Of a DNA stretch of 64,000 nt, positions 46,815 through 63,213 are shown one piece after another (within the stretch, counting starts at the first letter, position 1; every line of letters starts with the position of its first letter). This stretch comes from Algibacter pectinivorans (GTDB lineage Bacteria > Bacteroidota > Bacteroidia > Flavobacteriales > Flavobacteriaceae): assembly GCF_900112595.1 (NCBI RefSeq), contig NZ_FOMI01000004.1, positions 186,001-250,000 of the forward strand, read 5' to 3'. Below the pieces are notes generated by a model that worked only from the letters and a program-made list of their open reading frames with translations, was not told the origin of the DNA and made no database searches. The translations under genes were made by a program, and so were the position numbers.

Positions 46815-48017
46815 ATGCAAGAAGCACTAGAAGGCGTTAAGGTTTTAGATTTTTCGCAATTACTGCAAGGGCCTTATGCAACCCAAATGATGGGTGATTT
46901 AGGTGCAGATATAATAAAAATAGAAAGAAACGGAACTGGAGATATTTATAGAGGTATGACATTTTTAAACAAATGGATTGCTAAAGATGAATCGCCTTGT
47001 TTTATGGCGTGGAATAGAAACAAACGCTCATTATCTATAGATATTAAATCTGAAGAAGGAAAAGAAATTATCTACAAACTTGTTAAAGATGCAGATGTAG
47101 TAGTTGAGAATTTTCGCCCGGGAGTAATGGCGCGTTTAGGTTTTGGATATGAAGACCTAAAAAAGATTAACCCAAGTATTATTTATTGTTCAGCAAGTGG
47201 TTGGGGTGCAGATGGCCCTTATGTAACTAGACCAGGGCAAGACTTGTTAGTGCAGAGTGTTAGTGGTGCTGCGATGACTAGTGGAAAAAAATCTGATAGC
47301 CCTGTGGTATTAGGAACATCGCTTTGCGACCAAGTAAACGGATTGAATTCTGTTTATGCTATTCTTGCAGCATTATATTTTAGAGAGAAAACAGGTAAAG
47401 GACAAGAAATAAAAACAAATTTATTGTCGTCTGCTATAGCTTTTCAAATGCAGGATTTTTTTGCAATTCAGAACTTAAATACCCCTTTTGTACGACCAGA
47501 ATCAAATATAGGACACCCAGGAAGTGGAGCACCATTTGGAACATATAAAACAAGCGATGGCTATTTAACAATAGCCATGAATCCTTGGGCTAAGTTAGTT
47601 AAGGCATTAGGAGAACCTAAGCTCATGCAATATGATGATGCGCAAGTACTTTATGATAAACGTGATGAAGTTCATGCAGCTATAGAAGCTGTAACAATAA
47701 CCAAAACTGCAGATGAGTGGTTAGATATTATGTTGGAAATGGATTTGTGGGTGGCCAAAGTACACGACCAATCTGAGGTAGAACATAATCCGCAAGTTAT
47801 TCACAATAAAACATTTGTAGAGGTAGAGCACCCTAAGGCAGGAAAAGTAAAGGTTACTAATATTCCTTTTTATATGAGTGAAACACCTGGGCAAATAAAA
47901 CGACCATCGCCAATGTTGGGCGAACACGGAGAAGAGATTTTAGCAGAATTAGGACTGAGTAAACAAGAAATTCAAGAGTTAATTGATAAGAATGTTATAA
48001 CAATTGAGAGGCTTTAA
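46815..48017 (+). CDS. Family III CoA-transferase (CaiB/BaiF), copy 1
   Basis: A 400-residue cytoplasmic enzyme of the family that moves CoA between carboxylic acids through an enzyme aspartyl-CoA intermediate. Signatures: GVKVLDFSQLLQGPYATQMM, GADIIKIE, NRNKRSLSIDIKSEEGKE, VVENFRPGVMARLGFGYEDL and GTSLCDQVNG, whose Asp172 is the likely catalytic residue. Substrates cannot be read from sequence. Its stop is 28 bp before a GH92 lipoprotein gene, so it is co-transcribed with two alpha-mannosidases, an uncommon combination. A second member lies at 60949 with the key Asp at the same residue number. Confidence 0.9.
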   Translation: MQEALEGVKVLDFSQLLQGPYATQMMGDLGADIIKIERNGTGDIYRGMTFLNKWIAKDESPCFMAWNRNKRSLSIDIKSEEGKEIIYKLVKDADVVVENFRPGVMARLGFGYEDLKKINPSIIYCSASGWGADGPYVTRPGQDLLVQSVSGAAMTSGKKSDSPVVLGTSLCDQVNGLNSVYAILAALYFREKTGKGQEIKTNLLSSAIAFQMQDFFAIQNLNTPFVRPESNIGHPGSGAPFGTYKTSDGYLTIAMNPWAKLVKALGEPKLMQYDDAQVLYDKRDEVHAAIEAVTITKTADEWLDIMLEMDLWVAKVHDQSEVEHNPQVIHNKTFVEVEHPKAGKVKVTNIPFYMSETPGQIKRPSPMLGEHGEEILAELGLSKQEIQELIDKNVITIERL

Positions 48018-48045
48018 AAGCAGTTTGTTAAACCTTTAGAAATAT

Positions 48046-50739
48046 ATGAAAAGCGTAACCTTTACAATATCCTCAAAATTAATATATACATTAGTAATAG
48101 GTACGCTTTTAACAGTAAGTTGTAATCTTAATAAAACTCAAGATTCACTTACCGAAGTAAATTCTCCAATAGATTACATTGATACACGAATAGGAACAAA
48201 ATCATGGTCTGGTAAATCTACCTTAAGTCAAGCCGAATTACCGCAAGGGCATGTTTATCCTGGTGTTGGAGCGCCTTTTGCAATGACGCAGATTAGCCCA
48301 CAAACCACAAAAAAAGATATTCCGTATTGGTGGGAGCATGAAAAAATTCAAGGATTCCGGAGTACACATTATCCAAACGGAGCCTCTATGTCTGAATATG
48401 GTCCGCTAACTATAATGCCTATGGTTGGAGATTTAAAAATTACGCCAGAAGAACGCGCATCCACATTTAACCATGCAAATGAAATAGCAAAACCACATTA
48501 TTATTCGGTTACTTTAAACGATTACAATATTAAAGCAGAATTAACTGCTGTTGCTAAAGCCAAGTTTTTACAGTTTAGCTACCCAAAATCTAATGCATCT
48601 CATATTGTTATAGATAATCCCTTTGCACATGGTTATTTTAAAGTGAATCCAGAAAAAAACGAAATTGAAGGCTACACAGATAATTCAGGTAGAGCAGGTA
48701 ATATGGGCTATACAGGTAGAGAATTTGCATCGTATTTTGTGGCAAAATTTAGTAAGCCTTTTGATAGTTTTATGATAGTACCAAAACCTGACATAACAAA
48801 GACACCTCTTCTGTTTCCTGAAGGATTTACAGGTAAATTTTATAACAATCTAAACTTATCTGGTAAGCCAAGTGTTACAAGAAATGATGCTATTATAGAT
48901 TTTGAATGGAGCGAATCTCCTGCAAAAGGTATAAAACCCAATCAATTTTCAGCAAAATACATTGGTGAACTCGTAACAACACAAGCAGGAGTTTATACAT
49001 TTTATGTTACTAGCGATGATGGCGTACGATTATTTTTAGATGATAAATTAGTTATAGATTCTTGGTATAATCGAGGTGCAACTACTAATACGTATAGTGT
49101 TTCTTTAGAAGCCACTAAAACATATAGCATTAAAATTGAATATTTTGATAGTGGTGGCGGTGCTACATTAAAGTTTGGTTGCGCACCTCCAGTAACACAT
49201 ACGCCAGAACAAATTAGTCTAATGGCAACTAAAGGTGCTCAGGCTAATGCGGTTCATGTATCTTTTAAAACTAATAAAGACGAAAAAGTACAAGTTAAAA
49301 TTGGGACTTCTTTTATAAGTATAGACCAAGCAAGAAAAAATCTAAATAGTGAAATTAATCATTGGGATTTTGAAAAAACAGCAGAAGAGACTAAAAATAA
49401 ATGGAATCAAGCATTAAGTAAAATCAAGATTGAAGCCTCAGAAACAGATAAGAAAATTTTCTACACCGCTTTACAACGTTGTATGCTTTTACCAAGAAAT
49501 ATAACAGAAGATGGGTATCATTATAGTGCGTTTAATGGCAAAGTAGTGCCAGGAGTTATGTATACTGATTTTTCATTGTGGGATACATTTCGTTCGGAAC
49601 ATCCACTGCTTATACTTCTTGAACCTGAAAGGGTTTCAGTAATGATTGAAGCGTTGCTTAACTCTTACGATGAAGGCGGTTGGATTCCAAAATGGCCAAG
49701 TCCAGGCTATTCAAACATTATGCATGGTACACATGGCGATGCTGTAATTGCGGATGCATACATAAAAGGAATCAAAGGCTATAATGTTGATAAAGCGTTT
49801 GAAGCCATGATTAAAAATGCAACTACTAAAAGTACTGGTCGTTATGTGGCGCGTGCAGGAATTTTAGAGTATCAAAAATTAGGGTATGTACCTACTGATA
49901 AATATGGAGAATCGGCAATAAGAACCATGGAGTTTGCCTATGATGATTATTGTATTGCACAAATGGCGAAAGCTATAGGTAAAACAGATGTCTATAATGA
50001 ATTCATAAAACGTGCTCTATATTATAAAAATATGCTAGACCCCGAAACAAAATTGGTTAGAGGAAGAAATTCCGATGGTTCTTGGCGAGATGCTAACGAC
50101 CCATCAATTAGTGGGTGGGCGTATGGAAGCGACAAGGACAGAGAAAATTATTTTAGGAACATTACACTTTTTGCCCCGCATGATGTGCAAGGATTAGCCA
50201 ATTTTATGGGAGGCAATCATAAACTAGAGGAATACTTAGACCATTTCTTTAAAAACGACTTCTATTACGTAGGCGATGAATATTCGATGCATTCCCCATA
50301 TTTATACAATTACGTTGGAGCGCCATGGAAAACTCAAAAGCTTATCCGAGAATTAATTAATGATAATTTTGAAGAGACACCTGGTGGCTTACCAGGTAAT
50401 GAGGACTGTGGACAAATGTCATCATGGTATATTTTTGGAGCCATGGGATTTTATCCTACCTGCCCAGGTAGTCCTACTTATCAAATAGGAAGCCCCGCTT
50501 TTAATAAGGGGAGTATTAATCTTGCAAATGGTAAAGTCTTTACTATAATAGCGAATAACAACTCAAAAGAAAATGTGTACATACAATCTGCGACTTTAAA
50601 TGGAGAAGCTTACACAAAATCTTGGATTCATCATGATGCTATTATGAACGGTAGTACTTTAGAATTTGAAATGGGGCCAAAGCCTAATAAAAATTGGGGA
50701 GACTTGAAAGGAGATAGACATGTTTCAATTAGTGAATAA
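48046..50739 (+). CDS. GH92 alpha-mannosidase with inserted PA14 domain, lipoprotein (copy 5)
   Basis: An 897-residue GH92, about 130 longer than its neighbours because a PA14 domain is inserted at residues about 258-390 (GFTGKFYNNLNLSGKPSVTR, YTFYVTSDDGVRLFLDDKLV and YSIKIEYFDSGGGATLKFGC), inside the N-terminal beta domain. PA14 domains often bind glycans. The lipoprotein signal ends GTLLTVSC. The catalytic-acid segment is unusual: DRENYFRNITLFAPHD (Glu near 700) instead of TEGNAWQYxWxxPHD. The downstream GNEDCGQMSSWYIF (near 784) is canonical. It lies between the CoA-transferase and GH92 copy 6. Specificity probably differs from the simple copies. Confidence 0.9.
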   Translation: MKSVTFTISSKLIYTLVIGTLLTVSCNLNKTQDSLTEVNSPIDYIDTRIGTKSWSGKSTLSQAELPQGHVYPGVGAPFAMTQISPQTTKKDIPYWWEHEKIQGFRSTHYPNGASMSEYGPLTIMPMVGDLKITPEERASTFNHANEIAKPHYYSVTLNDYNIKAELTAVAKAKFLQFSYPKSNASHIVIDNPFAHGYFKVNPEKNEIEGYTDNSGRAGNMGYTGREFASYFVAKFSKPFDSFMIVPKPDITKTPLLFPEGFTGKFYNNLNLSGKPSVTRNDAIIDFEWSESPAKGIKPNQFSAKYIGELVTTQAGVYTFYVTSDDGVRLFLDDKLVIDSWYNRGATTNTYSVSLEATKTYSIKIEYFDSGGGATLKFGCAPPVTHTPEQISLMATKGAQANAVHVSFKTNKDEKVQVKIGTSFISIDQARKNLNSEINHWDFEKTAEETKNKWNQALSKIKIEASETDKKIFYTALQRCMLLPRNITEDGYHYSAFNGKVVPGVMYTDFSLWDTFRSEHPLLILLEPERVSVMIEALLNSYDEGGWIPKWPSPGYSNIMHGTHGDAVIADAYIKGIKGYNVDKAFEAMIKNATTKSTGRYVARAGILEYQKLGYVPTDKYGESAIRTMEFAYDDYCIAQMAKAIGKTDVYNEFIKRALYYKNMLDPETKLVRGRNSDGSWRDANDPSISGWAYGSDKDRENYFRNITLFAPHDVQGLANFMGGNHKLEEYLDHFFKNDFYYVGDEYSMHSPYLYNYVGAPWKTQKLIRELINDNFEETPGGLPGNEDCGQMSSWYIFGAMGFYPTCPGSPTYQIGSPAFNKGSINLANGKVFTIIANNNSKENVYIQSATLNGEAYTKSWIHHDAIMNGSTLEFEMGPKPNKNWGDLKGDRHVSISE

Positions 50740-50782
50740 TTGAAGCGAAAAAATAGTATTGTTTATAATTAAAAAAACTTTT

Positions 50783-53113
50783 ATGAAGACTAGAATAATA
50801 AATATAAAACTCATTTTATTGATGGTTTTTTTCGTGTCGAGTTGCACAAAAAAATCAAAACAAAAAGCACCAATTCACGCAGTGGATTACACCCAATATG
50901 TAAACCCATTTATAGGAACCCAAAACGAAGGACATACATTTCCAGGAGCAACAACGCCCTTAGGAATGGTGCAACCAAGTCCAGAATCTTATAATATTCA
51001 TTACAAAGGCTATGAAATGGATCATATTGCTGGTTATCAGTACAACGATCCCTGGTTAATAGGCTTTACTCAAACACATTTAAATGGGGTTGGGTGTCCT
51101 TCTATGTCCGATATTTTATTACAACCTTTAAATACAGATACTATTAATAGTGAATCTAGATTTAACTATAAATCTACATACACCAAAGACTCTGAAATAG
51201 CCAAACCAGGTTATTACAAGGTGTATTTAGATAATTTTAAAGTGCAGGTAGAGTTAACTGCTACAGAACGAGTGGCGTATCATAGGTACACTTATGACAA
51301 TGAAAAAAATGCAAAACTATTGATAGATTTACAATACGGCGTCTCTTGGGATATCAATGAAATTCCTTTAAATATTTTAGAAGCTAATCAACAATTTGAA
51401 GACGACTATACGTTAACTGGCTATAGAAAAGCTAGGGTATGGGCGCCCAGAGATTTGTATTATGTAATCAAATTCAATAAGAAAATTGTAAAAAAGCAAG
51501 AGCTAACACCACCAGAAAACAAAGGTGAAAAGGCACCACGCTATATTCTTGATTTTGATATGCAAGGTGCTACAGTTCTTGAAGTAAAAATTGGAGTATC
51601 TACAGTAGGAATAGCAGAGGCTAAAAAGAACTTAGATACAGAAATAAGTACATGGAATAGTTTTGATTCCATTAGAGCAGCAACCAACAAAAAATGGAAT
51701 GACATATTAGCAAAGTTTCACTTAAAAGCAAACGAAGATAAAAAAGTAGCGTTTTATACTAGCTTGTACCATCTTTATATTCAACCTAATAATATTGCAG
51801 ATGTAGATGGAAGATTTAGAAGTGCCGATTCGGGTGTGCAAAATGCAGCCAGTGGTAAATACTATTCAACATTGTCTCTCTGGGATACGTATCGTGCGGC
51901 AAACCCTATGTACACAATTCTTAGTCCAGATTTAGTAAGCGATATTAATACCTCTATGCTTGATAGTTATAAATTTATGACTGTTGATTCATTAAATCCT
52001 AAAGAAGCTAATAAATACTTACCAAGATGGCAACTTTGGGGACAAGAAACACATACTATGGTTGGTAATCATGCTGTACCTGTAATTGTTGATGCTTATT
52101 TAAAAGGCATAAAACCAAAAGGTTATAGTGATCAGGAAATTTTTGATGCTGTTTGGACATCTTTAACCAAACCACATTATCGCAATCATGTAGAATTGAT
52201 AGATTCCTTTGGATACATTCCTTACGATGTTAAACTGTCTAGTATTGATGATGGTAGAGAAACGGTGTCACGTCTTTTGGAGAATACATACGACGATTAT
52301 GCAGGGGCTTTACTTGCTGAAAAACTAGGAAAACAAAAAGAGGCTGACTTCCTTAAAAAAAGAGCTACTTATTATAAAAATGTATATAATAAAGAAAGTG
52401 GTTTTATGCGAGGTAAAAATGCTAAAGGAGAATTTAAAAAAGACATAGATTTATCTGAGGTGGTTGGCGAATGGCTAAAAGGTTCAGATTTTACAGAAGG
52501 TAATGCATACCATTATCAATTTCATGTCTTACACGATATTTCAGGTTTGGTTGATATTATGGGGGGTAAAACAGAATTTGGAAAAAAACTAGACAATCTA
52601 TTTTATTCAGAATTTAAGCCAGAGGTTAAAACTCTGGTTTGGAATATTCATGGTACGTACGGGCAATATTGGCATGGAAATGAACCTTGTCACCATTTGC
52701 CTTATTTGTACAAATATTCAGATAAACCCTATAAAACAGATAAAATCATAAAAACACTAATTGATGAATATTATTACACAAAACCAGATGGTTTGATGGG
52801 GAATGACGATTGTGGGCAAATGTCTGCATGGTATATGTTTGGTGTACTTGGTTTTTATCCAGTAAATCCAACTGGAGGACAATATATTTTAGGAGCACCG
52901 CAGGTAGAGCAAGTGAAAATTAACCTTCCAAATAGAAATACATTTACCATAAAAGCTAAAAATTTAAGTGATACCAGTTTTATTGTTGAATCTGTAACCC
53001 TGAATGGGGAGGTATTAAATAGAAATTATATCACCCACGAAGAAATTATAAATGGAGGCGAGTTAGTATTTGAAATGACAGAGGAAGCCCCTTTGCTTAA
53101 ATATTTAAATTAA
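50783..53113 (+). CDS. GH92 alpha-mannosidase, lipoprotein (copy 6)
   Basis: A 776-residue GH92. The start at 50783 was chosen since it gives a lipoprotein signal (INIKLILLMVFFVSSC); the frame extends to 50759 without adding anything signal-like. Landmarks: YVNPFIGTQNEGHTFPGATT, FTEGNAYHYQFHVLHD (Glu near 572), WHGNEPCHHLPYLYKY and GNDDCGQMSAWYMFG (near 673). An extra segment around ETHTMVGNHAVPVI and the SLTKPHYRNHVEL region departs from copies 1 and 2. It ends the CoA-transferase operon; the lacI gene follows after 122 bp containing an operator. Confidence 0.92.
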   Translation: MKTRIINIKLILLMVFFVSSCTKKSKQKAPIHAVDYTQYVNPFIGTQNEGHTFPGATTPLGMVQPSPESYNIHYKGYEMDHIAGYQYNDPWLIGFTQTHLNGVGCPSMSDILLQPLNTDTINSESRFNYKSTYTKDSEIAKPGYYKVYLDNFKVQVELTATERVAYHRYTYDNEKNAKLLIDLQYGVSWDINEIPLNILEANQQFEDDYTLTGYRKARVWAPRDLYYVIKFNKKIVKKQELTPPENKGEKAPRYILDFDMQGATVLEVKIGVSTVGIAEAKKNLDTEISTWNSFDSIRAATNKKWNDILAKFHLKANEDKKVAFYTSLYHLYIQPNNIADVDGRFRSADSGVQNAASGKYYSTLSLWDTYRAANPMYTILSPDLVSDINTSMLDSYKFMTVDSLNPKEANKYLPRWQLWGQETHTMVGNHAVPVIVDAYLKGIKPKGYSDQEIFDAVWTSLTKPHYRNHVELIDSFGYIPYDVKLSSIDDGRETVSRLLENTYDDYAGALLAEKLGKQKEADFLKKRATYYKNVYNKESGFMRGKNAKGEFKKDIDLSEVVGEWLKGSDFTEGNAYHYQFHVLHDISGLVDIMGGKTEFGKKLDNLFYSEFKPEVKTLVWNIHGTYGQYWHGNEPCHHLPYLYKYSDKPYKTDKIIKTLIDEYYYTKPDGLMGNDDCGQMSAWYMFGVLGFYPVNPTGGQYILGAPQVEQVKINLPNRNTFTIKAKNLSDTSFIVESVTLNGEVLNRNYITHEEIINGGELVFEMTEEAPLLKYLN

Positions 53114-53210: not shown

Positions 53211-53228
53211 AACTAAACCGTTTTAGTT
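53211..53228. promoter_or_regulatory. LacI-type operator in front of the regulator gene
   Basis: AACTAAACCGTTTTAGTT, 7 bp before the lacI ATG, implying autoregulation. It differs from the other two copies at one central position. Confidence 0.85.
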
Positions 53229-53235
53229 CTACTTA

Positions 53236-54255
53236 ATGAAAAAAGTGTACCTTAAGGATATTGCAAAAGACTTGAATGTTTCCAAGACAGCTGTTTCGCT
53301 AGTTTTGAATGGTAAAGGAAACGAAAATAAAATAAGTCAAGAGACACAACAAAAAATTATAGAATATGCTAAAAAGCATAATTATATACCAAATCAGTTG
53401 GCTCGAGGCCTTAGTAGAGGTAAAAGTGAAACTATAGGTTTAATTATTCCTAATATTTCGGATACGTTTTATTCCAAAGTAGCAGGTGTAATTGAAAGAA
53501 AGGCTAAAGAAAACGGATATACGGTGCTTTTTAGTAGTTCTTATGAAAATCCTGAAAAGGAGGGAGAATTGATACAATCTATGTTGAATAGGCAAGTAGA
53601 TGGGTTAATTATAGCTTCGACGCAACAAAACCAAAAAGAGATTGATTTTTTGAAAAAAGAAAAATTTCCGTTTGTTCTTTTTGATAGACATTACCCTAGT
53701 AAGAATACGGATTATGTGGTTGTAGATAATTACGATGGAACTAGAAAGATTACAGAGCACCTTTTAAATCTTGGGAGAAAAAAAATAGGGCTAATTACGT
53801 TAAAACCAGGTTTAGAGCCGATAGCACAAAGGTTATTAGGTTATAAAGATGCATTAGCTACATTTAATATAGACCTAGATAAAGATTATATTTTCGAAAT
53901 TGAACGCGAAGAATATATACATGAGATTGAAAAGGCTATACAAAGTTTAGTTTTAGGTAAAAATCCTATAGATGCGATTGTTTTTTCAACTCATTATTTG
54001 GCATCTCAAGGTCTAAGATTACTTAAAAAATTAAACATAAGCGTACCAGAAAAGGTTGCTATTGTAAGTTTCGACGAACTAAGTGCTTTTGATATTGTAG
54101 ATCCACCTATTACATCTGTAATTCAGCCTATTAATAAAATAGGTTGTTCAGTAATAGATATTTTGTTAAATAAAATAGAAGGAATTTCAGAACAAGGAAC
54201 TAAAGGCATCGTTTTAGAAACAAAACTCGAAATTAGGCAGTCTTGTGGTCAATAA
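53236..54255 (+). CDS. LacI-family transcriptional regulator
   Basis: A 339-residue repressor-type protein. The N-terminal helix-turn-helix (VYLKDIAKDLNVSKTAVSLV, then LNGKG) and hinge (NYIPNQLARGLSRGKSETIG) are typical; the rest is a periplasmic-binding-protein-like sensor domain (IGLIIPNISDTFYSKVAGVI, DGLIIASTQ, VVDNYDGTRKITEHLL, VSFDELSAFDIVDPPITSV). Members respond to sugars or sugar phosphates. Palindromes of the LacI type sit before its own gene, the GH38 pair and the RraA operon, which define a likely regulon. Confidence 0.93.
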   Translation: MKKVYLKDIAKDLNVSKTAVSLVLNGKGNENKISQETQQKIIEYAKKHNYIPNQLARGLSRGKSETIGLIIPNISDTFYSKVAGVIERKAKENGYTVLFSSSYENPEKEGELIQSMLNRQVDGLIIASTQQNQKEIDFLKKEKFPFVLFDRHYPSKNTDYVVVDNYDGTRKITEHLLNLGRKKIGLITLKPGLEPIAQRLLGYKDALATFNIDLDKDYIFEIEREEYIHEIEKAIQSLVLGKNPIDAIVFSTHYLASQGLRLLKKLNISVPEKVAIVSFDELSAFDIVDPPITSVIQPINKIGCSVIDILLNKIEGISEQGTKGIVLETKLEIRQSCGQ

Positions 54256-54281: not shown

Positions 54282-54303
54282 TTAACTAAACCGATTTAGT
54301 TAA
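54282..54303. promoter_or_regulatory. LacI-type operator upstream of the RraA-to-UxuA operon
   Basis: AACTAAACCGATTTAGTT at 54284-54301; the palindrome extends two more bases each side (TT and AA). It lies 171 bp before the RraA-like gene and 27 bp after lacI. The rest of the 218-bp gap shows no further motif. Confidence 0.85.
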
Positions 54304-54473: not shown

Positions 54474-55178
54474 ATGAGCAGTACAAAGAAAATATGGAAA
54501 AATGATAAAGAGCTATTCAGTATAGCTAAATCAGAATTATTCGTTGCCTTAGTAGGCGATATTTTAGATACACTTGGTTATCAACATCAATTTCTTCCAC
54601 CAAGTATAAAACCTTTAAATACAGATTTTGTTTTAATAGGAAGAGCTATGCCTGTGCTAGAAGCGGATGTTTTTGAAGAGTCTTCTAAAAATACTAATAA
54701 CCCTATGATGAAAAAGCCTTTCGGGATTATGTTCGAAGCTTTAGACGATTTAAAGGAAGATGAAGTTTATATCTGTTCAGGGTCGTCTCCAAGATACGCA
54801 CTTTGGGGCGGGTTAATGAGTACAAGGGCTTTAAAGCTTAAAGCAGCAGGTGCTGTACTTCATGGCTATTCTAGAGATACTAATGAAGTTTTAGAACTTA
54901 ATTTTCCAACCTTCTCTTATGGCGGGTATGCACAAGATCAAGGACCACGAGGAAAAGTGATAGATTATAGAGTGCCAATTGAAATTGAAGGTACACGCAT
55001 AAATCCAGGAGATATTATTTATGGAGATAGGGATGGTGTAATTGTAGTGCCTAAAGCTGTTGAAGAAGAGGCATTTATGGGTGCTATAGGAAAAGCTAGA
55101 GGCGAACAGTTAGTTAAAAAAGCTTTAGAAGAAGGTATGAGTACTGTTGACGCTTATAATAAATTCGGCATTATGTAA
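54474..55178 (+). CDS. RraA-family protein (HMG/CHA-aldolase-like)
   Basis: A 234-residue protein of the RraA/MenG-like fold, which includes 4-hydroxy-4-methyl-2-oxoglutarate and related class II pyruvate aldolases as well as the RNase E inhibitor RraA. Signatures: LVALVGDILDTLG, the SGSSPRYALWGGLMSTRALK loop, AAGAVLHGYSRDTNEV (Arg-Asp pair of the metal/pyruvate site) and GDIIYGDRDGVIVVPKAVEE. It is longer than E. coli RraA, and heading a catabolic operon it is more likely an aldolase, lyase or decarboxylase on an oxo acid than an RNase regulator (inference). Confidence 0.82.
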   Translation: MSSTKKIWKNDKELFSIAKSELFVALVGDILDTLGYQHQFLPPSIKPLNTDFVLIGRAMPVLEADVFEESSKNTNNPMMKKPFGIMFEALDDLKEDEVYICSGSSPRYALWGGLMSTRALKLKAAGAVLHGYSRDTNEVLELNFPTFSYGGYAQDQGPRGKVIDYRVPIEIEGTRINPGDIIYGDRDGVIVVPKAVEEEAFMGAIGKARGEQLVKKALEEGMSTVDAYNKFGIM

Positions 55179-55215: not shown

Positions 55216-56676
55216 ATGAGTACTAAAAAATCTAATTATTTATTAGGTATCAGTTTTGTGTCTACCATTGGAGGATTTCTGTTTGGATACGACACAGCTA
55301 TAATTTCTGGCTGTAATTCGTTTCTAGAACAGCATTTTCAATTGTCTGCAGCCATGTTAGGTTGGGTAGTATCATCAGCACTATTAGGAACCATTTTGGG
55401 CTGCGTAGTGGCAGGGTCTATAACAGATAAATTTGGAAGGAAAAAGGCACTTATTTTAGCGGCACTTTGTTTAACAATATCTGCTTTTGGTTCCATGTTG
55501 CCGCCACAATTTTTAGGTAATTTGGATAACAATTTTTGGATAACATCAGATGTTACTACATCTTTTAATTTCTTAATAGTAGTCAGATTAATAGGCGGTA
55601 TTGGTGTTGGTATAACATCTGTAGTGGCACCAATTTATATTTCAGAACTTTCTAAACCAGAGAATAGAGGTAAAATGGTGTCTTTATATCAGTTGTCCAT
55701 TACTTTAGGTATTTTATTAGCCTTTTTAATAGATTGGATTGTATTAAGTAGTGCAGGCGATGCGGCAGGGGTGATTACTAACGAGCCATCTTCATTTTGG
55801 AACTGGTTATTTGTAGATGAGTTATGGCGTGGTATGTTTGGTACAGAAGTGCCTATTGCATTACTATTCTTAGGCTTACTTTTTATAGTGCCAGAAACCC
55901 CTAGATGGTTAATTACTAAAGGGAGAAAAGTTGAAGCGTTAGCGATAATGGAAAAGATACTTGGAAAAGAAGAAGCACAACTGGAGATGAAAGAAATAGA
56001 GGCTCTAGAAAAAGAAGAGACAGGAGGTTTTAAAGAATTATTTCAACCGTTTTTAAGAATTCCACTTTTAATAGGTATTCTACTTCCAATGTTTGCGCAT
56101 TTAAGCGGTATTGCAGCAATAATGTACTATGCACCAAATATTATTAACGAATCTGTAAAAAGTGTAGAAAGTGCTTTTTTAGGTGCGGTTTTAGTGGGGG
56201 TTGTTAATAGTGCATTTACGTTTGTAGCCATTTCTCAGATTGAAAAGTTTGGTAGAAAAAAACTACTACTTATAGGAGTTGTAGGCGCTTTTATTTCACT
56301 ATCTGGTGTTGGTATATTGTTCGCTATGGGGTCACAATATGTTATCATACCGTTACTAATGTACGTTGCAAGTTTCGCATTCTCATTTGGTCCAATTGTT
56401 TGGGTTATTATTAGTGAGATTTTCCCTACTAGAATACGAGGTTTAGCGGTATCTATCGGAAGTTTCTCATTAATGGTTACTGGTTTTGTAGTCACGCTTA
56501 CCAATCCTGTTTTAATAGAAACTATTAATGCTTCTGGAACCTTCTTTTTGTATGCCTTTTTAACCATGCCAGCCATTTGGTTTATATGGAAATTTGTTCC
56601 AGAAACAAAAGGAAAAACTTTAGAAGACATAGAAAAACACTGGCATTCATTAATTAAGTCTAGAAACAAATCATAA
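55216..56676 (+). CDS. Sugar porter (MFS, XylE/GLUT-type)
   Basis: A 486-residue, 12-helix permease. ATG 55216 was chosen because it gives the usual N-terminus directly before helix 1 (YLLGISFVSTIGGFLFGYDT); the open frame extends back to 55147 into the preceding gene. Family signatures: GSITDKFGRKKALIL, RLIGGIGVGITSVVAPIYIS, VPETPRWLI, SEIFPTRIRGLA and the terminal VPETKGKTLEDIEKHW. It imports a sugar or polyol with protons. Within the LacI-controlled operon it probably brings in the starting compound of the pathway encoded downstream. Confidence 0.93.
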   Translation: MSTKKSNYLLGISFVSTIGGFLFGYDTAIISGCNSFLEQHFQLSAAMLGWVVSSALLGTILGCVVAGSITDKFGRKKALILAALCLTISAFGSMLPPQFLGNLDNNFWITSDVTTSFNFLIVVRLIGGIGVGITSVVAPIYISELSKPENRGKMVSLYQLSITLGILLAFLIDWIVLSSAGDAAGVITNEPSSFWNWLFVDELWRGMFGTEVPIALLFLGLLFIVPETPRWLITKGRKVEALAIMEKILGKEEAQLEMKEIEALEKEETGGFKELFQPFLRIPLLIGILLPMFAHLSGIAAIMYYAPNIINESVKSVESAFLGAVLVGVVNSAFTFVAISQIEKFGRKKLLLIGVVGAFISLSGVGILFAMGSQYVIIPLLMYVASFAFSFGPIVWVIISEIFPTRIRGLAVSIGSFSLMVTGFVVTLTNPVLIETINASGTFFLYAFLTMPAIWFIWKFVPETKGKTLEDIEKHWHSLIKSRNKS

Positions 56677-56677
56677 T

Positions 56678-57094
56678 ATGATAGAAATATATAAAATAGA
56701 GGGCGATGGGTACCATCCTTTTTTAATACGAGAAGGATGGCAAGTAGCTCAGCTTAACTATCAGGAAGAACAGCATATTGATAATATAAAAAAACTAGAT
56801 GTTCATCTAGAAACAGATGAGGTTTTTGTTTTAACAAAAGGAAACTCAGTATTAATTGCTGCCAAAATAGAAGATGGAGAGCCCGTTTTTGAATTGCAAC
56901 TCATGGAACAACATAAAGTTTATAATATCCCACAAGATATGTGGCATAATATAGCCATGGAAAAAGGTAGTGAAGTTATAATTATAGAAAAATCGAACAC
57001 ACACATTTCTGATTTTGAGTTTTTTCCATTAAATAACGATAAACAAATTGAATTAAAGGAAAAGGTTAAAACTCTTTTTAATACAGTAAAGTAA
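56678..57094 (+). CDS. Small cupin-fold protein
   Basis: A 138-residue protein starting one base after the porter stop. The segment VHLETDEVFVLTKGNSVLIA, followed by QHKVYNIPQDMWHNIAM, is the two-motif pattern of a small RmlC-like cupin; possible metal ligands are His, Glu and the later His (DEVF; MWHNI). Small cupins in sugar-acid operons act as isomerases, lyases or sensors. I do not recognise a specific function. Confidence 0.65.
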   Translation: MIEIYKIEGDGYHPFLIREGWQVAQLNYQEEQHIDNIKKLDVHLETDEVFVLTKGNSVLIAAKIEDGEPVFELQLMEQHKVYNIPQDMWHNIAMEKGSEVIIIEKSNTHISDFEFFPLNNDKQIELKEKVKTLFNTVK

Positions 57095-57105
57095 ACATAA
57101 GCAAC

Positions 57106-57903
57106 ATGAAACATATTGATTTAGCTGGAAAAACAGCTTTAATTACTGGGGGAAGCCAAGGTATAGGAGCCGAAATTTGTAAGCAACTAGCAGCTTGTGG
57201 TGCAAATGTTTTTATAAATTATTACAGTAATAAAGAAAAGGCAGAAGTTGTTGCCGAAGAGATAAGAAAGTCTTTTAATGTAAAAGTAGCCATAGGTAGA
57301 GCAAACGTATCTAAATCTAAAGAGGTTAAAGCTATGTTTAATAAACTAGATGAAGAACTTGGCAGTTTAGATATTTTAGTAAATAATGCTGGAAGTGAAA
57401 GCGTAGAGCATGTTTTAGATTTAGAAGAAGACGAATGGGATAGAGTGCTTAATATTAATTTAAAAGGTCCTTTTTTGTGTGCTAAAGAAGCGGGGCGAAG
57501 AATGGAATTAAAAAAATCTGGGGTTATCATAAATATTTCATCCATTCATGATGCTGTACCAAGAAAAGGATTAATTCATTACTGTTCTGCAAAAGCGGGT
57601 TTAAAAATGTTTTCAAAATGCTTGTCTCTAGAATTAGCAGAAAGTAATATAAGAGTGGTTTCGGTAGCTCCCGGAGCTATAGAAACTAATATGAATAGAG
57701 AAGAAATTAACAAATTTGGTCGAGAAAAATTCAACAATTGGATTCCATCTGGTCGCGTTGGCAATGTTACAGAAGTTGCAAATACTGTAGCCTTTCTTGC
57801 TAGTGATATGGCAGCCTATATAAATGGTTCAGACCTTTATATAGATGGTGCGTATATGAATCATACCATACAGTATGACCCCAGACCGCCACGTAAAAAA
57901 TAA
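57106..57903 (+). CDS. Short-chain dehydrogenase/reductase
   Basis: A 265-residue classical SDR: cofactor motif TGGSQGIGAEICKQL, NNAGS, catalytic Ser in NISSIHD and the YCSAK motif (Tyr and Lys), then the PGAIETNM loop. The Asn-Tyr-Tyr-Ser end of strand 2 (INYYSNKEKAE) is compatible with NADP use, though that is weak evidence. Within this operon it could oxidise a sugar or hydroxy acid, for example aldose to lactone ahead of the lactonase that follows 17 bp later (inference). Confidence 0.9.
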   Translation: MKHIDLAGKTALITGGSQGIGAEICKQLAACGANVFINYYSNKEKAEVVAEEIRKSFNVKVAIGRANVSKSKEVKAMFNKLDEELGSLDILVNNAGSESVEHVLDLEEDEWDRVLNINLKGPFLCAKEAGRRMELKKSGVIINISSIHDAVPRKGLIHYCSAKAGLKMFSKCLSLELAESNIRVVSVAPGAIETNMNREEINKFGREKFNNWIPSGRVGNVTEVANTVAFLASDMAAYINGSDLYIDGAYMNHTIQYDPRPPRKK

Positions 57904-57920
57904 TAAATCATAATTTATTT

Positions 57921-59009
57921 ATGAAACTGATTCTCTTAACATTAACGCTACAAAGTATGGCAATATTCTATACAGGAAGTTACACGCAAGCGGGTGCACC
58001 TGCCGAAAACCCAACAGGTAAAGGTATAGGGTGCTTTCAACTAAATTTAGAAACAGGAGAAATTAAAAACCTGCACTATACAAAACAGCGTAATCCTAGT
58101 TATCTTACAATTTCTGAAGACAAAAAATATCTATATGCTCTTGAGGAAATGTTTGAAAACTTAAACCCTAAAGTGTATGCGTATAAAATTGAAAAAGATG
58201 GGGCATTAACGCTTTTAAACTCACAAAAAATAAATGGGGATTATGCATGTCATTTAGATATAATTGAGGATAAACTAGTGTTAGCTAATTATGTTTCAGG
58301 AAATTTATTGTCTTTTCCAATTTTAAACGATGGGAGTTTAGCACCTTGTTCGCAAGAGATTAAACACAAAGGTACAGGGCCTAATACAGAACGACAGGAA
58401 GCTGCACATGCCCATATGGTATATCCTTTTGGAAAAGATAAAATGTACGGAGTAGACTTAACTTTAGATACGGCCAAGGCATATCAACTAAATCCTATTT
58501 CTAAAAAATGGGAGGCTAAGCCAAATCTTGATATTACCATTGAGAAGGGTAGCGGTTCAAGGCACATGGTTATGGATAACACCGAAGATTTTGCTTATAT
58601 ATTAGGAGAGTTAACAGGTGGAATTTCTGTGGCTAATCTACAAGGAAGTAAACCCGAAATTGTGCAAAAACTAAGTTTTATTCCAGAAAATCATACAGGA
58701 GCTATTGGTGGCGCAGCTATTAAAATGCATCCAAACGGCAAGTTTTTGTACGCTTCAAACCGAGGCTCAGAAACTATTACAATATTTAGAATTGATGATA
58801 CCTCTAAACAATTGAGTTTATTAGGATATCAACCTACTTTAGGAAAAACAGCAAGAGATTTTAATATAGATAAAACTGGAAATTGGCTTATTGTAGCAAA
58901 TCAAGATTCAAATGTATTGGTAGTATTTCAAATTCATTCAAACACTGGAATGCTTAAAGAAAAATCTAAGCTAGAAGTACAAACACCAGTAAATATTTGC
59001 TGGTTGTAA
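57921..59009 (+). CDS. Beta-propeller lactonase (6-phosphogluconolactonase-like, PF10282 type)
   Basis: A 362-residue seven-bladed propeller: IFYTGSYTQAGAPAENPTGK, KYLYALEEM, YACHLDI, HAHMVYPFGKDKMYGVDLTL, GSGSRHMVM, MHPNGKFLYASNRGSETITI and TGNWLIVANQDSNVLVVFQI. Relatives hydrolyse sugar lactones. Two starts are possible: the given ATG adds a short hydrophobic leader (KLILLTLTLQS) too brief for a convincing signal peptide, whereas ATG 57957 begins at the first propeller strand. Cytoplasmic location is assumed. It follows the SDR, a pairing seen in oxidative sugar pathways. Confidence 0.85.
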   Translation: MKLILLTLTLQSMAIFYTGSYTQAGAPAENPTGKGIGCFQLNLETGEIKNLHYTKQRNPSYLTISEDKKYLYALEEMFENLNPKVYAYKIEKDGALTLLNSQKINGDYACHLDIIEDKLVLANYVSGNLLSFPILNDGSLAPCSQEIKHKGTGPNTERQEAAHAHMVYPFGKDKMYGVDLTLDTAKAYQLNPISKKWEAKPNLDITIEKGSGSRHMVMDNTEDFAYILGELTGGISVANLQGSKPEIVQKLSFIPENHTGAIGGAAIKMHPNGKFLYASNRGSETITIFRIDDTSKQLSLLGYQPTLGKTARDFNIDKTGNWLIVANQDSNVLVVFQIHSNTGMLKEKSKLEVQTPVNICWL

Positions 59010-59038
59010 ATTAAAAAATTAAATAATCATAATATAAA

Positions 59039-60193
59039 ATGATTGAACTTAAAGGTATAGCATGGGACCACCCACGAGGGTATGAACCTCTAATTGCAGC
59101 ATCAAAGGCATTCAAAAAAGTAAATCCGATGATAAACATCCAGTGGGATGTGCGCTCGCTAAAAGAATTTGGTGACATGCCGATAGAGGATTTAATTGGT
59201 AAGTACGATTTTATAACTATTGACCATCCTTATATGGGGCAAGCCGATAAAAATGGATTGTTACTTAAATTAGAAACATGTGTATCTTCAGAAGCATTAG
59301 AACTATTAAAATCTGACGCTTTAGGTAAATGTTATGATATTTACCATTACAATAGCTGTTTCTATGCAACGCCTATAGATGCGGCGGCTTTAGTGGCTTC
59401 ATATAGAAAAGATCTTCTTAAAAACACAGGTTTAAGCTTGCCAAAAAACCGTGATGAACTTAAAGGGTTTTATAAAAAACTACCATCAGAGTTTTCAATA
59501 GCATGGGCACTATGTCCAACCGATATTTGGTGTACATTTCTAAGCCTTTGTGCTCAGAATTATGGTAAAGATTTTATTCAAAATCAACATATAAATTCGC
59601 AAGTTGGAGTGGAGGTATTAGACGATATAAAATTTCATGTAGCGCATAGTCATCCAGAGTCTTTAAATTGGAATCCTATTCAAATATTAGACAGCATGGG
59701 TAATGAAGATAAAATCATTTATTCACCCTATTTATTTGGATACACCAACTATTCCCGAAAAAGTTACACCAAAAATATCGTGCATTTCACCAATAGTCCA
59801 GTTGGCCAGCAGCAAAACGTGTCAACGATAATGGGAGGTGTAGGACTAGCAGTATCAGCTTTATGTAAGCAACCTTCTTTAGCTGCAAATTTTGTCATGT
59901 ATGCGGCAAGTGCAAATATTCAAAAAGGTGTTTTTACTTTAAATGGGGGGCAACCTGCAAGTAAAACTGCTTGGGAAAATGCAGAGAACAATGAGCTATG
60001 TAATAACTTTTTTAAAGACACTAAGTTAACTATTGAAAACGCTTATATACGTCCACAGCATCCAGGGTGGAATCAATTTCAGGAGCATGGTGCAGACATT
60101 ATTCATGAAGGGATATTGAAAAATATCAGCTCTGAAATTATTATGAAAGACTTAAACGAACTTTATAAATCAGTTGGTAATGAAGACATTTAA
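59039..60193 (+). CDS. Solute-binding-protein-like protein without a signal peptide
   Basis: A 384-residue protein resembling family 1 extracellular solute-binding proteins: GYEPLIAASKAFKKVNPMIN, YDFITIDHPYMGQADKNGLL, YATPIDAAALVASYRKDLLK, STIMGGVGLAVSALCKQPSL and NGGQPASKTAWENAE. It starts directly with MIELKGIAWDHPRGYEPL, with no hydrophobic leader or lipobox, and no ABC permease or ATPase is nearby, so it should be cytoplasmic and not a transport component. It is followed, with a 14-bp overlap, by a crotonase and then a CoA-transferase. It may bind or act on a pathway intermediate; function unknown. Confidence 0.75.
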   Translation: MIELKGIAWDHPRGYEPLIAASKAFKKVNPMINIQWDVRSLKEFGDMPIEDLIGKYDFITIDHPYMGQADKNGLLLKLETCVSSEALELLKSDALGKCYDIYHYNSCFYATPIDAAALVASYRKDLLKNTGLSLPKNRDELKGFYKKLPSEFSIAWALCPTDIWCTFLSLCAQNYGKDFIQNQHINSQVGVEVLDDIKFHVAHSHPESLNWNPIQILDSMGNEDKIIYSPYLFGYTNYSRKSYTKNIVHFTNSPVGQQQNVSTIMGGVGLAVSALCKQPSLAANFVMYAASANIQKGVFTLNGGQPASKTAWENAENNELCNNFFKDTKLTIENAYIRPQHPGWNQFQEHGADIIHEGILKNISSEIIMKDLNELYKSVGNEDI

Positions 60194-60959
60194 AACTATA
60201 AAGGTTGAAACCACAGGTAAAATAGCGGTGTTAAAATTTAACCGCTCCTTACAATTAAATGCCATGAATCGGCTAATGATGGATGAAATTGTTGAAGGTA
60301 TTAAATGGATTAATTCAAATAATGAAGTAAATGTCGCTGTTATAACGGGAGAAGGAAGAGCGTTTATGGCGGGAGCCGATATAAAAGAGTATGGTAGTCA
60401 AACTGCAGAAGAGTTTGATGCATTTCAAGAAAAAGGGATGCAATTGTATGATGCTATAGAACATGCATCAAAACCATGGATTGCTGCCGTAAACGGTTTT
60501 GCGCTAGGGGGCGGCTTTGAAATTGCTTTGTCTTGTGACATGATTGTAGCTTCAGAAGATGCCAAAATGGGATTACCAGAAGTGTTTTTAAGTTTAATTC
60601 CTGGTGGAGGTGGCACACAACGCCTAATTCAAAAGGTAGGCGTTAATCGAGTTAAAGAAATGTTGTTTTTAGGAGGGCAATATGATGCTAAAACTTTAAA
60701 CAATTGGGGTGTTGTTAACACTATATTTCCAAGTGATAATTTTCAATCTCAAGCCATGGATTATGCAGGTAAATTATCAAGGCGACCACAACAATCTATT
60801 GCGCAGTTAAAACGCTTAGTAAACTTAAGTATGACGGCTACCCCTTTTGAAGAACGTATAAACAATGAAGCACGCACCGTTAAAAAATTGTACTTACATG
60901 ATGATGCTCAAAAAGCTATTCAAAATTTTATAAAAAAATCAGAAAACAATGGAAAATAA
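60180..60959 (+). CDS. Enoyl-CoA hydratase/isomerase (crotonase family)
   Basis: A 259-residue crotonase. ATG 60180 is used; the open frame only extends to a TTG at 60174. The oxyanion-hole motifs are GRAFMAGADIKEY and GFALGGGFEIALSCD. Both acidic residues that define hydratase activity in the rat enzyme are present, Glu114 (GGGFE) and Glu134 (LPEV), exactly 20 apart as there. So water addition or elimination on an acyl-CoA is plausible. It overlaps the solute-binding-like gene by 14 bp and the CoA-transferase by 11 bp, showing tight coupling of the three. Confidence 0.93.
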   Translation: MKTFKTIKVETTGKIAVLKFNRSLQLNAMNRLMMDEIVEGIKWINSNNEVNVAVITGEGRAFMAGADIKEYGSQTAEEFDAFQEKGMQLYDAIEHASKPWIAAVNGFALGGGFEIALSCDMIVASEDAKMGLPEVFLSLIPGGGGTQRLIQKVGVNRVKEMLFLGGQYDAKTLNNWGVVNTIFPSDNFQSQAMDYAGKLSRRPQQSIAQLKRLVNLSMTATPFEERINNEARTVKKLYLHDDAQKAIQNFIKKSENNGK

Positions 60960-62136
60960 CGGACCATTAAAAGGATTGGTTGTTGCCGATTTTTCACAAT
61001 TAGCACAAGGCCCTTGGGCAACGCAGATGTTAGGAGACATGGGTGCAGAAATCATAAAAATAGAGCCTCCCAAAGGCGATTGGATGCGTCACTATGCTTA
61101 TGGAAATCTGTATCCAAAAGGCGAAAGTATTTCATTTATTAGTTTCAACAGAAATAAAAAAAGTATTGCACTCGATATCAAAACAGATGAGGGCAAACAA
61201 ATAGCAAAAGACATTATTGCTAAGGCCGATATTCTTTTAGAAAATTTCCGTCCAGGAGTTATGGAGCGTTTGGGTTTAGGCTATGACAATATGAAAGTAC
61301 TAAACCCTAAATTGGTGTATTGTTCAAGCTCGGGTTACGGTGCATCTGGCCCTTATTTAAAACGACCAGGACAAGATTTACTGGCGCAATCTATAAGCGG
61401 TGGCCCATTTTTAAATGGAAAAAAAGGAGATTTACCAGTAGTGACTGCCGTTGGACAAGCAGACTTATTAACGAGTTTGTTTATTGTACAGTCGGTTTTG
61501 GCAGCTATTTATTCGCGTAGCGTTACAGGAAAAGGTCAAAAAATAGAAGCTAATTTACTGAGTTCGGCAGTAGGGTTTCATACTCAAGAAATTACGGCGT
61601 TTTTACATAAAGGCGAAAACCCTGAACGTAGTGAAAGTGGTATTCCAAATCCTTGGCTTGGAGCGCCTTATGGATTGTACGATACAAGTGATGGCTATAT
61701 TGCTATAGGCATGAATACTGTGCGCAAATTAGCCCAGGTCATCGGTTTGGATAAATATGATAACGAAGCATTTAATTCAAATAATATTATAGAAGGAAGG
61801 GATGATATTCGTAATGATTTCAATGCTGTTTTTAAAACAAAAACTACTACCGAATGGTTAGATATATTATTAGCAGAAGATATTTGGTGTTCCCAAGTTA
61901 ATAGTTTTAAAGAGATGGTAGAAGATCCACAAATAAAGCATAATAATATGATTTTGGAGTACGAACACCCAACAATAGGTAAAGTAAAAACTACAGGTTT
62001 TCCTGTGCAATTTAGTGATACGCCACAAAAAATTGATAAACCTGCTCCACTATTAAATCAACACGCCGAAGAGATATTACAACACTTTAGTAGCTATACA
62101 GATGAAGAGATTAAAGCATTTTTAAAACAAAAATAG
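60949..62136 (+). CDS. Family III CoA-transferase (CaiB/BaiF), copy 2
   Basis: A 395-residue paralogue of the enzyme at 46815. It shows VVADFSQLAQGPWATQMLGD, GAEIIKIE, SFNRNKKSIALDIKTDEGKQ, LLENFRPGVMERLGLGYDNM, and the probable catalytic Asp172 in VGQADLL. Family III enzymes are often heteromers, so copies 1 and 2 could form one enzyme or act on two substrates. It overlaps the crotonase gene by 11 bp and is followed 6 bp later by the UxuA-like gene. Confidence 0.92.
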   Translation: MENNGPLKGLVVADFSQLAQGPWATQMLGDMGAEIIKIEPPKGDWMRHYAYGNLYPKGESISFISFNRNKKSIALDIKTDEGKQIAKDIIAKADILLENFRPGVMERLGLGYDNMKVLNPKLVYCSSSGYGASGPYLKRPGQDLLAQSISGGPFLNGKKGDLPVVTAVGQADLLTSLFIVQSVLAAIYSRSVTGKGQKIEANLLSSAVGFHTQEITAFLHKGENPERSESGIPNPWLGAPYGLYDTSDGYIAIGMNTVRKLAQVIGLDKYDNEAFNSNNIIEGRDDIRNDFNAVFKTKTTTEWLDILLAEDIWCSQVNSFKEMVEDPQIKHNNMILEYEHPTIGKVKTTGFPVQFSDTPQKIDKPAPLLNQHAEEILQHFSSYTDEEIKAFLKQK

Positions 62137-62142
62137 TATAAG

Positions 62143-63213
62143 ATGAAATTAGGATTTGGATTATACCGTCACATGCTCAATGAGCAGCATTATAAGTTTG
62201 CAAAACAATGTGGTGCTACACATTTAGTGGTACACATGGTAGATTATTTTGGTAATACAGACAACAGTAAATCTAACGCCAACCAGCCTATTGGTGGCGA
62301 TAGAGGTTGGGGTAAAGCAGGTAATGGCGAGCTATGGACTTTAGAAGACCTTCTTAAAATTAAAAAAGAGATAAATAGTCACGGTTTAGAATGGTATGCT
62401 ATAGAAAATTTCGACCCTTCTATTTGGCATGATATTCTTTTGGATGGCCCCAAAAAAGAAGCACAAATAGAATTGGTTAAAGAGCAGATTCGTATAGTTG
62501 GAAAAGCAGGAATACCTGTTTTTGGATACAATTTTTCTTTGGCTGGCGTATCTAGTAGAGTTGAAAAACCATTTGCTAGGGGAGGCGCTGTTTCTGTTGG
62601 GATGGAAGGTTCAGTAGACGAAAAACCAATACCCAATGGCATGGTTTGGAATATGGTTTACGATGAAAATGCGCCAGAAGGCACCGTAGAACGCGTATCT
62701 CATGATACACTATGGGAACGCTTGCAGTATTTTCTAGATGAAATTATTCCTGTTGCAGAAGAAGCGGGTGTTAAAATGGCTGCTCACCCAGATGACCCAC
62801 CAATGCCCTATGTTAGAAACACACCACGATTGGTATACCAACCAGATATGTACCAACGTCTTATAGACATGCAACCTAGCGAAAGTAATAATCTTGAATT
62901 TTGCTTAGGAACCATTGCAGAAATGACCGATGGTAATGTATACGAAGCAACAAAACAGTACAGTAAACAAAATAAAATTGCTTATATTCATTTTAGAAAT
63001 GTAGTAGGCAAAGTACCTAATTATAAAGAAGTATTTGTGGATGAAGGAGATATAGATATGTTTAAAATATTAGAAATTTTAAAACAGAATAGTTTTGAAG
63101 GTATTCTAATTCCAGACCATACACCGCAAATGAGTTGCGATGGTTCATGGTACGCAGGTATGGCTTATGCTATGGGATTCATGAAAGCAGCTTTAAGGGC
63201 TGTGAATGAATAG
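62143..63213 (+). CDS. Mannonate dehydratase-like protein (UxuA family)
   Basis: A 356-residue TIM-barrel metalloenzyme. Family signatures: KMAAHPDDPPMPYVRNTPRL, LEFCLGTIAEM, IAYIHFRNVVGKVPNYKEVF with the EGDIDMFKIL segment, and IPDHTPQM near the end; the His and Cys ligands of the Mn/Fe site appear present. UxuA removes water from D-mannonate to give 2-keto-3-deoxygluconate. Together with the SDR and lactonase upstream, an oxidative mannose route (mannose, lactone, mannonate) can be drawn, which suits a mannosidase locus; but some family members are inactive on mannonate, so the substrate is open. Last gene of the operon. Confidence 0.85.
   Translation: MKLGFGLYRHMLNEQHYKFAKQCGATHLVVHMVDYFGNTDNSKSNANQPIGGDRGWGKAGNGELWTLEDLLKIKKEINSHGLEWYAIENFDPSIWHDILLDGPKKEAQIELVKEQIRIVGKAGIPVFGYNFSLAGVSSRVEKPFARGGAVSVGMEGSVDEKPIPNGMVWNMVYDENAPEGTVERVSHDTLWERLQYFLDEIIPVAEEAGVKMAAHPDDPPMPYVRNTPRLVYQPDMYQRLIDMQPSESNNLEFCLGTIAEMTDGNVYEATKQYSKQNKIAYIHFRNVVGKVPNYKEVFVDEGDIDMFKILEILKQNSFEGILIPDHTPQMSCDGSWYAGMAYAMGFMKAALRAVNE

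Follow-up and report, generated by a model that had tools for sequence, protein, structure and literature searches.

Non-phosphorylative sugar oxidation runs through an SDR-family dehydrogenase, a lactonase, a dehydratase, and an aldolase, and we know of no such route that includes a coenzyme A (CoA)-transferase, an acyl-CoA hydratase, or a cytosolic solute-binding protein (SBP). In the CaiB/CaiD system, CoA is cycled from product back to substrate, with the hydratase acting on the CoA ester (PMC2131755), and a CoA-bound sugar acid has been proposed in the oxidation of deoxyribonate by Klebsiella michiganensis (PMC6365646). The locus described here lies in a 64,000-nucleotide stretch of Algibacter pectinivorans (GCF_900112595.1, contig NZ_FOMI01000004.1, positions 186,001 to 250,000; the window), where two family III CoA-transferases (CoAT1 and CoAT2), a crotonase, and a leaderless SBP-like protein are found among genes for sugar oxidation. 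The set of SBP, acyl-CoA hydratase, and CoAT is well supported as a real, widespread, and recurrent module, located mostly beside sugar-oxidation genes, and its function appears undescribed: no paper in the searched literature seemed to describe it, as judged by titles and abstract openings. Our tentative reading, held with somewhat less than even confidence, is that the window carries one LacI regulon for alpha-mannosides, in which a cytosolic SBP-crotonase-CoAT module dehydrates a sugar acid by CoA cycling.

CoAT1 and the rraA-uxuA gene set are listed here by position in the window.

46815-48017, plus strand: family III CoA-transferase 1, CoAT1 (Pfam CoA_transf_3 1.2e-112, residues 5-371)
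54474-55178, plus strand: RraA-like protein (Pfam RraA-like 1.5e-30; PDB 5ir2 1.2e-20)
55216-56676, plus strand: sugar porter, MFS, XylE-like (Sugar_tr 2.5e-104; TIGR00879 above cut-off)
56678-57094, plus strand: small cupin-like protein of 138 aa, a weak assignment (NCBIfam TIGR04366 9e-4, below cut-off)
57106-57903, plus strand: SDR, glucose-1-dehydrogenase-like (Pfam 1.5e-58; NF005559 9.7e-68, above cut-off)
57921-59009, plus strand: seven-bladed propeller lactonase (Pfam Lactonase 2.3e-85)
59039-60193, plus strand: leaderless solute-binding-like protein, the module SBP (SBP_bac_1 5.3e-10)
60180-60959, plus strand: crotonase (ECH_1 4.2e-57; PDB 5zai, 3-hydroxypropionyl-CoA dehydratase, 8.5e-51)
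60949-62136, plus strand: family III CoA-transferase 2, CoAT2 (NCBIfam family III models; PDB SUGCT 9br6 6.7e-71)
62143-63213, plus strand: UxuA-like mannonate dehydratase (Pfam UxuA 4.9e-55; PDB UxuA 3ban 8.5e-40)

The original prediction, made from the letters of the window, had placed all of these genes correctly and described them as packed with overlaps; the gaps from rraA to uxuA are, in gene order, 37, 1, 11, 17, 29, -14, -11, and 6 bp. The gene that it called a cupin is present, the name being weak (the 138-aa protein gave no Pfam match at 0.001). An antisense open reading frame (ORF) within the sugar porter gene (56235-56669) was set aside as presumably spurious.

Absence of the set from other genomes had been named beforehand as one result that would refute that prediction, and it was not borne out: the genes do occur together. 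A CoAT lies within 10 kb of the SBP in 52/59 intact loci and within 200 bp in 43 of the 59; the pairs often overlap by four bases, with the CoAT first in Alphaproteobacteria and the SBP first in Bacteroidota. These loci derive from 62 mapped stretches (the window, L031-L076, and L096-L110) after removal of L056, whose SBP is a fragment, and of L057 and L059, which gave no SBP match, and the 59 are not independent, including five Sinorhizobium CoAT-SBP pairs, several near-identical Algibacter-like copies, and eight loci from one genus (g127). Matches to CoAT2 were found in 32 of 299 Flavobacteriaceae genomes, where all 22 genomes at ≥228 bits also carry the SBP and none of the 10 at ≤175 bits does (Fisher 2e-31, uncorrected for kinship and with the score cut set afterwards at the gap). 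The SBP family itself is present in three phyla (Bacteroidota, Alphaproteobacteria, Streptomyces), with nearest named relatives in Algibacter and Maribacter. It was found in 24/299 Flavobacteriaceae genomes (E ≤1e-10), in 19/395 Bacteroidota genomes (E ≤1e-30; a sample overlapping with the former), and in 146 of 72,556 plasmid records (90 Sinorhizobium, 7 Azospirillum, 5 Roseibium, and 3 Streptomyces), of which 17 were mapped, only one of them from Streptomyces and with incomplete PLSDB gene tables. The 57 pattern matches in viral contigs contained no relatives.

The loci can be sorted by their gene content, labelled by phmmer with single reference proteins, a procedure that leaves distant members unlabelled and missed an annotated crotonase in L074. 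Type A, the arrangement of the window, consists of LacI, RraA, sugar porter, SDR, lactonase, SBP, crotonase, CoAT2, and UxuA. Type B (Bacteroidota) has a RhaT-like porter, the SBP, two CoATs, usually a second leaderless SBP, a Gfo/Idh oxidoreductase, MaoC, and often IclR, with a crotonase and an aldehyde dehydrogenase instead in L041, L047, and L048. In type B loci the second SBP family (SBP2) mostly comes after the CoAT pair (as at 12445-13677 of L060); a single ORF spans SBP2 and Gfo in L052, and a DUF5703/GH95-like gene lies between the two CoATs in L054 (11771-14083). Type C (Alphaproteobacteria) comprises CoAT, SBP, MaoC, amidohydrolase, and IclR, often with a mandelate-racemase-type dehydratase, rhamnose mutarotase, and sugar ABC transporter. 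Type D (Sinorhizobium L071 and L074, Pseudosulfitobacter L068) combines Gfo/Idh, isomerase, aldose epimerase, SDR, CoAT, SBP, and crotonase. Type E is the bare CoAT-SBP pair of pSymB-type replicons; in Sinorhizobium L069 (7838-10125), and likewise in L063, L064, L075, and L076, this two-gene unit has no adjoining sugar-oxidation genes labelled. Type F, from one Streptomyces plasmid, contains the SBP, an FAH-type hydrolase, LacI, a CoAT 2.6 kb away, MFS, MaoC, and aldehyde dehydrogenase. Near a Jannaschia SBP locus, a gene annotated as a 3-keto-5-aminohexanoate cleavage protein (L073, 18944-19092) is reminiscent of the deoxyribonate route.

Contexts A-D and F typically share a CoAT and an acyl-CoA hydratase adjoining sugar-type genes. 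The hydratase labelled in the 59 loci is a crotonase only in 14, MaoC only in 28, and both in one, with neither labelled in 16. The crotonase and MaoC folds are unrelated and have hydration/dehydration chemistry in common; since both fill one slot, the best guess for the module reaction is hydration or dehydration of an acyl-CoA, and the exchange points to that chemistry. Within 10 kb, no UxuA- or mandelate-racemase-type gene was labelled in types B and D, except in L074, other dehydratase families not having been searched for. Such dehydratases occur in 9/41 loci with both CoAT and hydratase versus 4/5 with neither (Fisher 0.018), a suggestive anti-correlation that is post hoc, drawn from related rows, and confined to those dehydratase families.

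Both CoATs named in the original prediction hold up as members of family III (CaiB/BaiF-type), are 47% identical to one another, and are predicted to have transferase rather than racemase activity. Their nearest PDB sequence is SUGCT (succinate-hydroxymethylglutarate CoA-transferase; 9br7 for CoAT1 and 9br6 for CoAT2), the match of CoAT2 extending over residues 1-391; the family III domain spans the full length of both proteins. The Asp of the RPGQD motif, which we take to be the catalytic Asp of family III CoA-transferases, aligns in CoAT2 with the Asp of SUGCT and is found in 87/87 module-type CoATs; it is also found in 8/8 unlinked weak relatives and hence does not discriminate. With the L-carnitine CoA-transferase model CoAT1 and CoAT2 scored 174 and 131 bits, respectively, against a cut-off of 413. 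In a quick FastTree with arbitrary rooting, the module CoATs grouped according to locus type. The crotonase has, as claimed, both catalytic Glu residues of a hydratase (at 116 and 136 when the ORF is numbered from 60174), and the pair is kept in 15/15 crotonases labelled within 10 kb of an SBP.

The function of the SBP is the most interesting point of the module. The description of the protein as leaderless proved accurate: its start codon comes third after an in-frame stop, and the sequence opens at the mature-domain motif. Export signals were assessed by reading the ORFs back to the preceding stop and by the hydrophobicity of the 45 residues before the mature motif, and no signal peptide was seen in the 45 SBP ORFs so read. 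Eighteen of these have fewer than 12 residues ahead of the motif, and among the remainder only L055 is borderline (hydrophobicity 1.6 in those residues). Profile comparison groups the SBP with sugar SBPs (TMBP 1eu8, 1.6e-21; SmoF 7nbz, 1.7e-16), and no NCBIfam family was matched at 1e-5. A sugar-type ABC permease was not found in the window genome, where the three BPD_transp_1 matches are of peptide/nickel and nitrate/taurine type; several alphaproteobacterial SBP loci hold sugar permeases, there adjoined by another SBP gene. An alignment of 37 members, the most distant sharing 26% identity with the window copy, has 23 invariant columns, including Trp9, Arg13, Asp57, Asp62, Asp114, Tyr235, Tyr238, Gln305, Trp312, and Arg338, some of the invariants being apparently fold-generic (GG and RP in profile alignments). 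The SBP may be a cytosolic binder of a sugar or sugar acid. In L107 (1033-10545) it stands in a row with aldolase/SDR fusion, xylose-isomerase-like, FGGY kinase, and EamA transporter genes, and from this isomerase/kinase/aldolase setting the ligand may be the sugar itself.

The surrounding genes and three putative operators are listed below.

37240-38319: PNGase F-like gene, part of the N-glycan context
39168-42776, minus strand: GH38 alpha-mannosidase (a), an ORF that clusters with its Pfam-confirmed neighbour
42795-46391, minus strand: GH38 alpha-mannosidase (b) (Pfam Glyco_hydro_38N 4.1e-22)
46424-46441: palindromic operator AACTAAATCGGTTTAGTT between the divergent GH38b and CoAT1 genes, an exact match of the AACTAAANCGNTTTAGTT pattern
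48046-50739, plus strand: GH92 alpha-mannosidase, clustering with another, Pfam-confirmed GH92 of the window
50759-53113, plus strand: GH92 alpha-mannosidase, an ORF grouped by clustering with a Pfam-confirmed GH92 in the window
53211-53228: operator AACTAAACCGTTTTAGTT upstream of lacI
53236-54255, plus strand: LacI-family regulator (Pfam LacI and Peripla_BP_3)
54284-54301: operator AACTAAACCGATTTAGTT, ahead of the rraA operon

Elsewhere the window contains PNGase F-like, GH92, GH38, GH130, SusC/SusD, and sensor genes, and the N-glycan locus of the original prediction is borne out to the extent that 'N-glycan or alpha-mannoside locus' is a fair label. A single ORF at 8460-10385 joins a glucosamine-6-phosphate isomerase domain to a PIG-L de-N-acetylase domain. 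The CoAT said to share an operon with two GH92 genes is CoAT1, which heads a CoAT1-GH92-GH92 operon with gaps of 28 and 19 bp. Elsewhere CoAT1 is found with a UxuA-type gene, MFS, SDR, and GH92 (L148 and L150) or with MFS, SDR, and GH20 (L147).

The palindrome AACTAAANCGNTTTAGTT has exactly three exact copies in the window (at 46424, 53211, and 54284), which sit in the three relevant gaps, and genome-wide the only further exact match is C9:7858. Allowing two mismatches, there are 17 places in the genome compared with five for the reversed control pattern. The C9:7858 copy lies upstream of a distant GH38 that is 65% identical over 320 residues to the GH38 following lacI in L031, and a second copy with two mismatches lies nearer to the same gene (both operator-like palindromes fall within L160, 7369-7875). 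Palindromes with zero to two mismatches flank lacI on both sides in L031, L032, L033, L058, L035, L038, and L153, and in genome G152 (L149) an exact copy lies between CoAT1 and GH38, the CoAT1-GH92-GH92 operon there being ∼41 kb from the SBP. The palindrome is a predicted LacI operator to which LacI would bind. As it precedes GH38/CoAT1, lacI, and rraA-uxuA, these genes look like one LacI-controlled alpha-mannoside regulon, well supported by the sequence, and through the shared element the CoAT2 operon is linked to CoAT1 and the mannosidases.

In the regulon so proposed, mannose freed by GH38 and GH92 would enter through the sugar porter, the SDR would oxidize C1, and the lactonase would open the lactone to mannonate, which UxuA could convert to 2-keto-3-deoxygluconate (KDG). 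The UxuA-like protein, below NCBIfam cut-offs, matches 3ban at the His/Cys/His/Asp positions that are presumably the metal ligands. The family III CoAT would load CoA on a hydroxylated sugar acid (the candidate substrate class), the crotonase (MaoC elsewhere) would remove water at C2-C3, in the manner of CaiD acting on carnitinyl-CoA, and CoA would be handed by the transferase from product back to substrate; an aldonate as substrate would probably yield a 2-keto-3-deoxy acid. The leaderless SBP would be an intracellular binder of the sugar or sugar acid, serving the CoA step as accessory or enzyme. This chemistry of the module is conjectural; retention of catalytic residues, joint decay of SBP and CoAT, the operators, CoAT linkage, the exchange of crotonase and MaoC, the types of BPD permease found in the genome, and the CaiB/CaiD precedent are counted in its favor, and CoA chemistry on a sugar acid is the simplest reading.

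Several observations weigh against this proposal. The main weakness is that a UxuA- or mandelate-racemase-type dehydratase stands alongside the module in type A and in three type C loci. Given UxuA in the operon, which should already dehydrate the expected acid, and KDG-kinase-like (KdgK) and KDPG-aldolase (Eda) genes in 13/13 genomes tested, the CoA step looks redundant in the window, where UxuA, KdgK, and Eda already make up a complete route. The 16/59 loci without a labelled hydratase include the bare Sinorhizobium pairs (L074 among them is a labelling miss), and 7/59 loci have no CoAT within 10 kb: in L034, L036, L037, and L055 one is found elsewhere in the genome, L038 has none in the genome, and L067 and L107 were judged on the plasmid stretch and the locus only, respectively. 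Genome G216 keeps the SBP with no CoAT match anywhere, and no sugar-acid step is visible beside the SBP in L107. At ≤3 mismatches the window has four palindrome matches versus 1.5 expected, a count reached by 10/100 shuffles and thus not significant; the weight falls on the three exact copies. The palindrome could not be located in L034, L147, or L148, and L036 has it at three mismatches only. Finally, the predicted SBP structure, built from four near-identical rows (window, L031, L032, and L033), is unusable (pLDDT 34, pTM 0.29).

That the SBP is itself an enzyme (an SBP-fold isomerase, dehydratase, or lyase), with CoAT and hydratase merely processing its product or substrate, is a less likely reading. 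The 23 invariant columns at such divergence, the missing export signal and sugar permease, and the existence of SBP-derived enzymes (PMC7683729) argue for it, whereas the grouping with TMBP and SmoF and the fold-generic look of some invariants argue against it. Chance placement of fatty-acid-type genes is highly improbable: the crotonase and CoATs do match generic acyl-CoA families, with none above an equivalog cut-off, but linkage in three phyla, common operators, and joint decay largely contradict it, and no thiolase or acyl-CoA dehydrogenase was seen among the scanned window genes.

A further alternative, distinctly improbable in our view, places the CoA unit after KDG. RraA would split KDG to pyruvate and glyceraldehyde, glycerate would be formed, the CoAT would turn it into glyceryl-CoA, the crotonase would dehydrate this to the enol of pyruvoyl-CoA, and CoA would pass to the next glycerate. 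The RraA-like protein is by motif a candidate 2-keto acid-cleaving aldolase: its translation carries G-X20-R-D-X2-E, which agrees with the class II pyruvate aldolase motif (G-X20-R-D-X2-E/D), and no NCBIfam model was matched at its cut-off. The nearest solved crotonase, a 3-hydroxypropionyl-CoA dehydratase, would also fit, although the nearest PDB entry says little about substrate. Decayed loci bear on the same point. L056 (5726-10287) has an SBP ORF of 95 aa and a CoAT ORF of 280 aa, the truncations recorded for genome G240, alongside PfkB-kinase and KDPG-aldolase genes, and in L057 (7603-9770) the lactonase is followed by kinase and aldolase genes, an SBP remnant being all that lies between. 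G240 and G270 carry KdgK and Eda in or beside the module slot (an additional copy in G240). RraA, SDR, lactonase, porter, and UxuA remain in both genomes, each of which has only a truncated SBP and CoAT or none (the SBP match in G270 covers 57 residues), with no crotonase labelled in the mapped stretches. The same five genes remain in G216, which with G270 makes up the SBP genomes without a CoAT and has no labelled crotonase in its locus. Against this alternative, KdgK and Eda lie ∼6 kb downstream of the intact module in L031 and are present in 13/13 genomes, deoxyhexose-type loci would yield lactate rather than glycerate, and RraA is labelled near just 7/52 CoAT-bearing SBP loci. Simple replacement of KdgK-Eda by SBP-crotonase-CoAT, considered as well, is weakened by the relatives of both in all 13 genomes, and from their presence RraA appears dispensable for completing the route. 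Of the route first predicted, the recurrent and apparently co-regulated CoA-linked module stands, and the order in which RraA cleaves after CoA activation is not specifically supported, RraA persisting where the module does not.

Returning to CoA cycling on a sugar acid, a broader claim is possible, if doubtful: that a family of cytosolic SBP-type proteins, spanning three or more phyla, has abandoned ABC transport and now serves as standing partner or enzyme of family III CoATs in the breakdown of ordinary sugar acids via CoA thioesters, with crotonase or MaoC replacing the classical sugar-acid dehydratases in many loci. If true, bacteria of several phyla would degrade common sugars, of mannose type here and rhamnose- or fucose-like elsewhere, via CoA thioesters, a logic so far proposed for deoxyribonate only within the literature examined, and many genes annotated 'extracellular solute-binding protein' would encode cytosolic metabolic proteins. 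The operators, the compact regulon, and the two-gene Sinorhizobium unit make the module testable in tractable organisms.

Compared with non-phosphorylative sugar oxidation, the window has the SDR, lactonase, UxuA, and RraA-type protein. SUGCT is a mitochondrial acyl-group transferase without sugar context, and resembles both CoATs as their closest PDB sequence with its Asp in the same column. The SBP belongs by profile to the family of the ABC sugar-binding proteins (TMBP, SmoF) and differs in having no visible signal peptide, no sugar permease found in the genome, and invariants of its own. The description of the route as undescribed survives in that no account of the module was found, and is softened by the Klebsiella proposal, in which a sugar acid is likewise activated with CoA in catabolism; the genes named in the available part of that paper are a CoA-synthetase, hydroxyacyl-CoA dehydrogenase, thiolase, and CoA-transferase, with no crotonase or SBP (PMC6365646). 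CaiB/CaiD differs in an operon table that has no sugar genes or SBP, and in a CoA-transferase model whose cut-off the window CoATs do not reach, and is alike in that a family III CoA-transferase and an enoyl-CoA-hydratase-type enzyme together dehydrate a hydroxy acid (PMC2131755).

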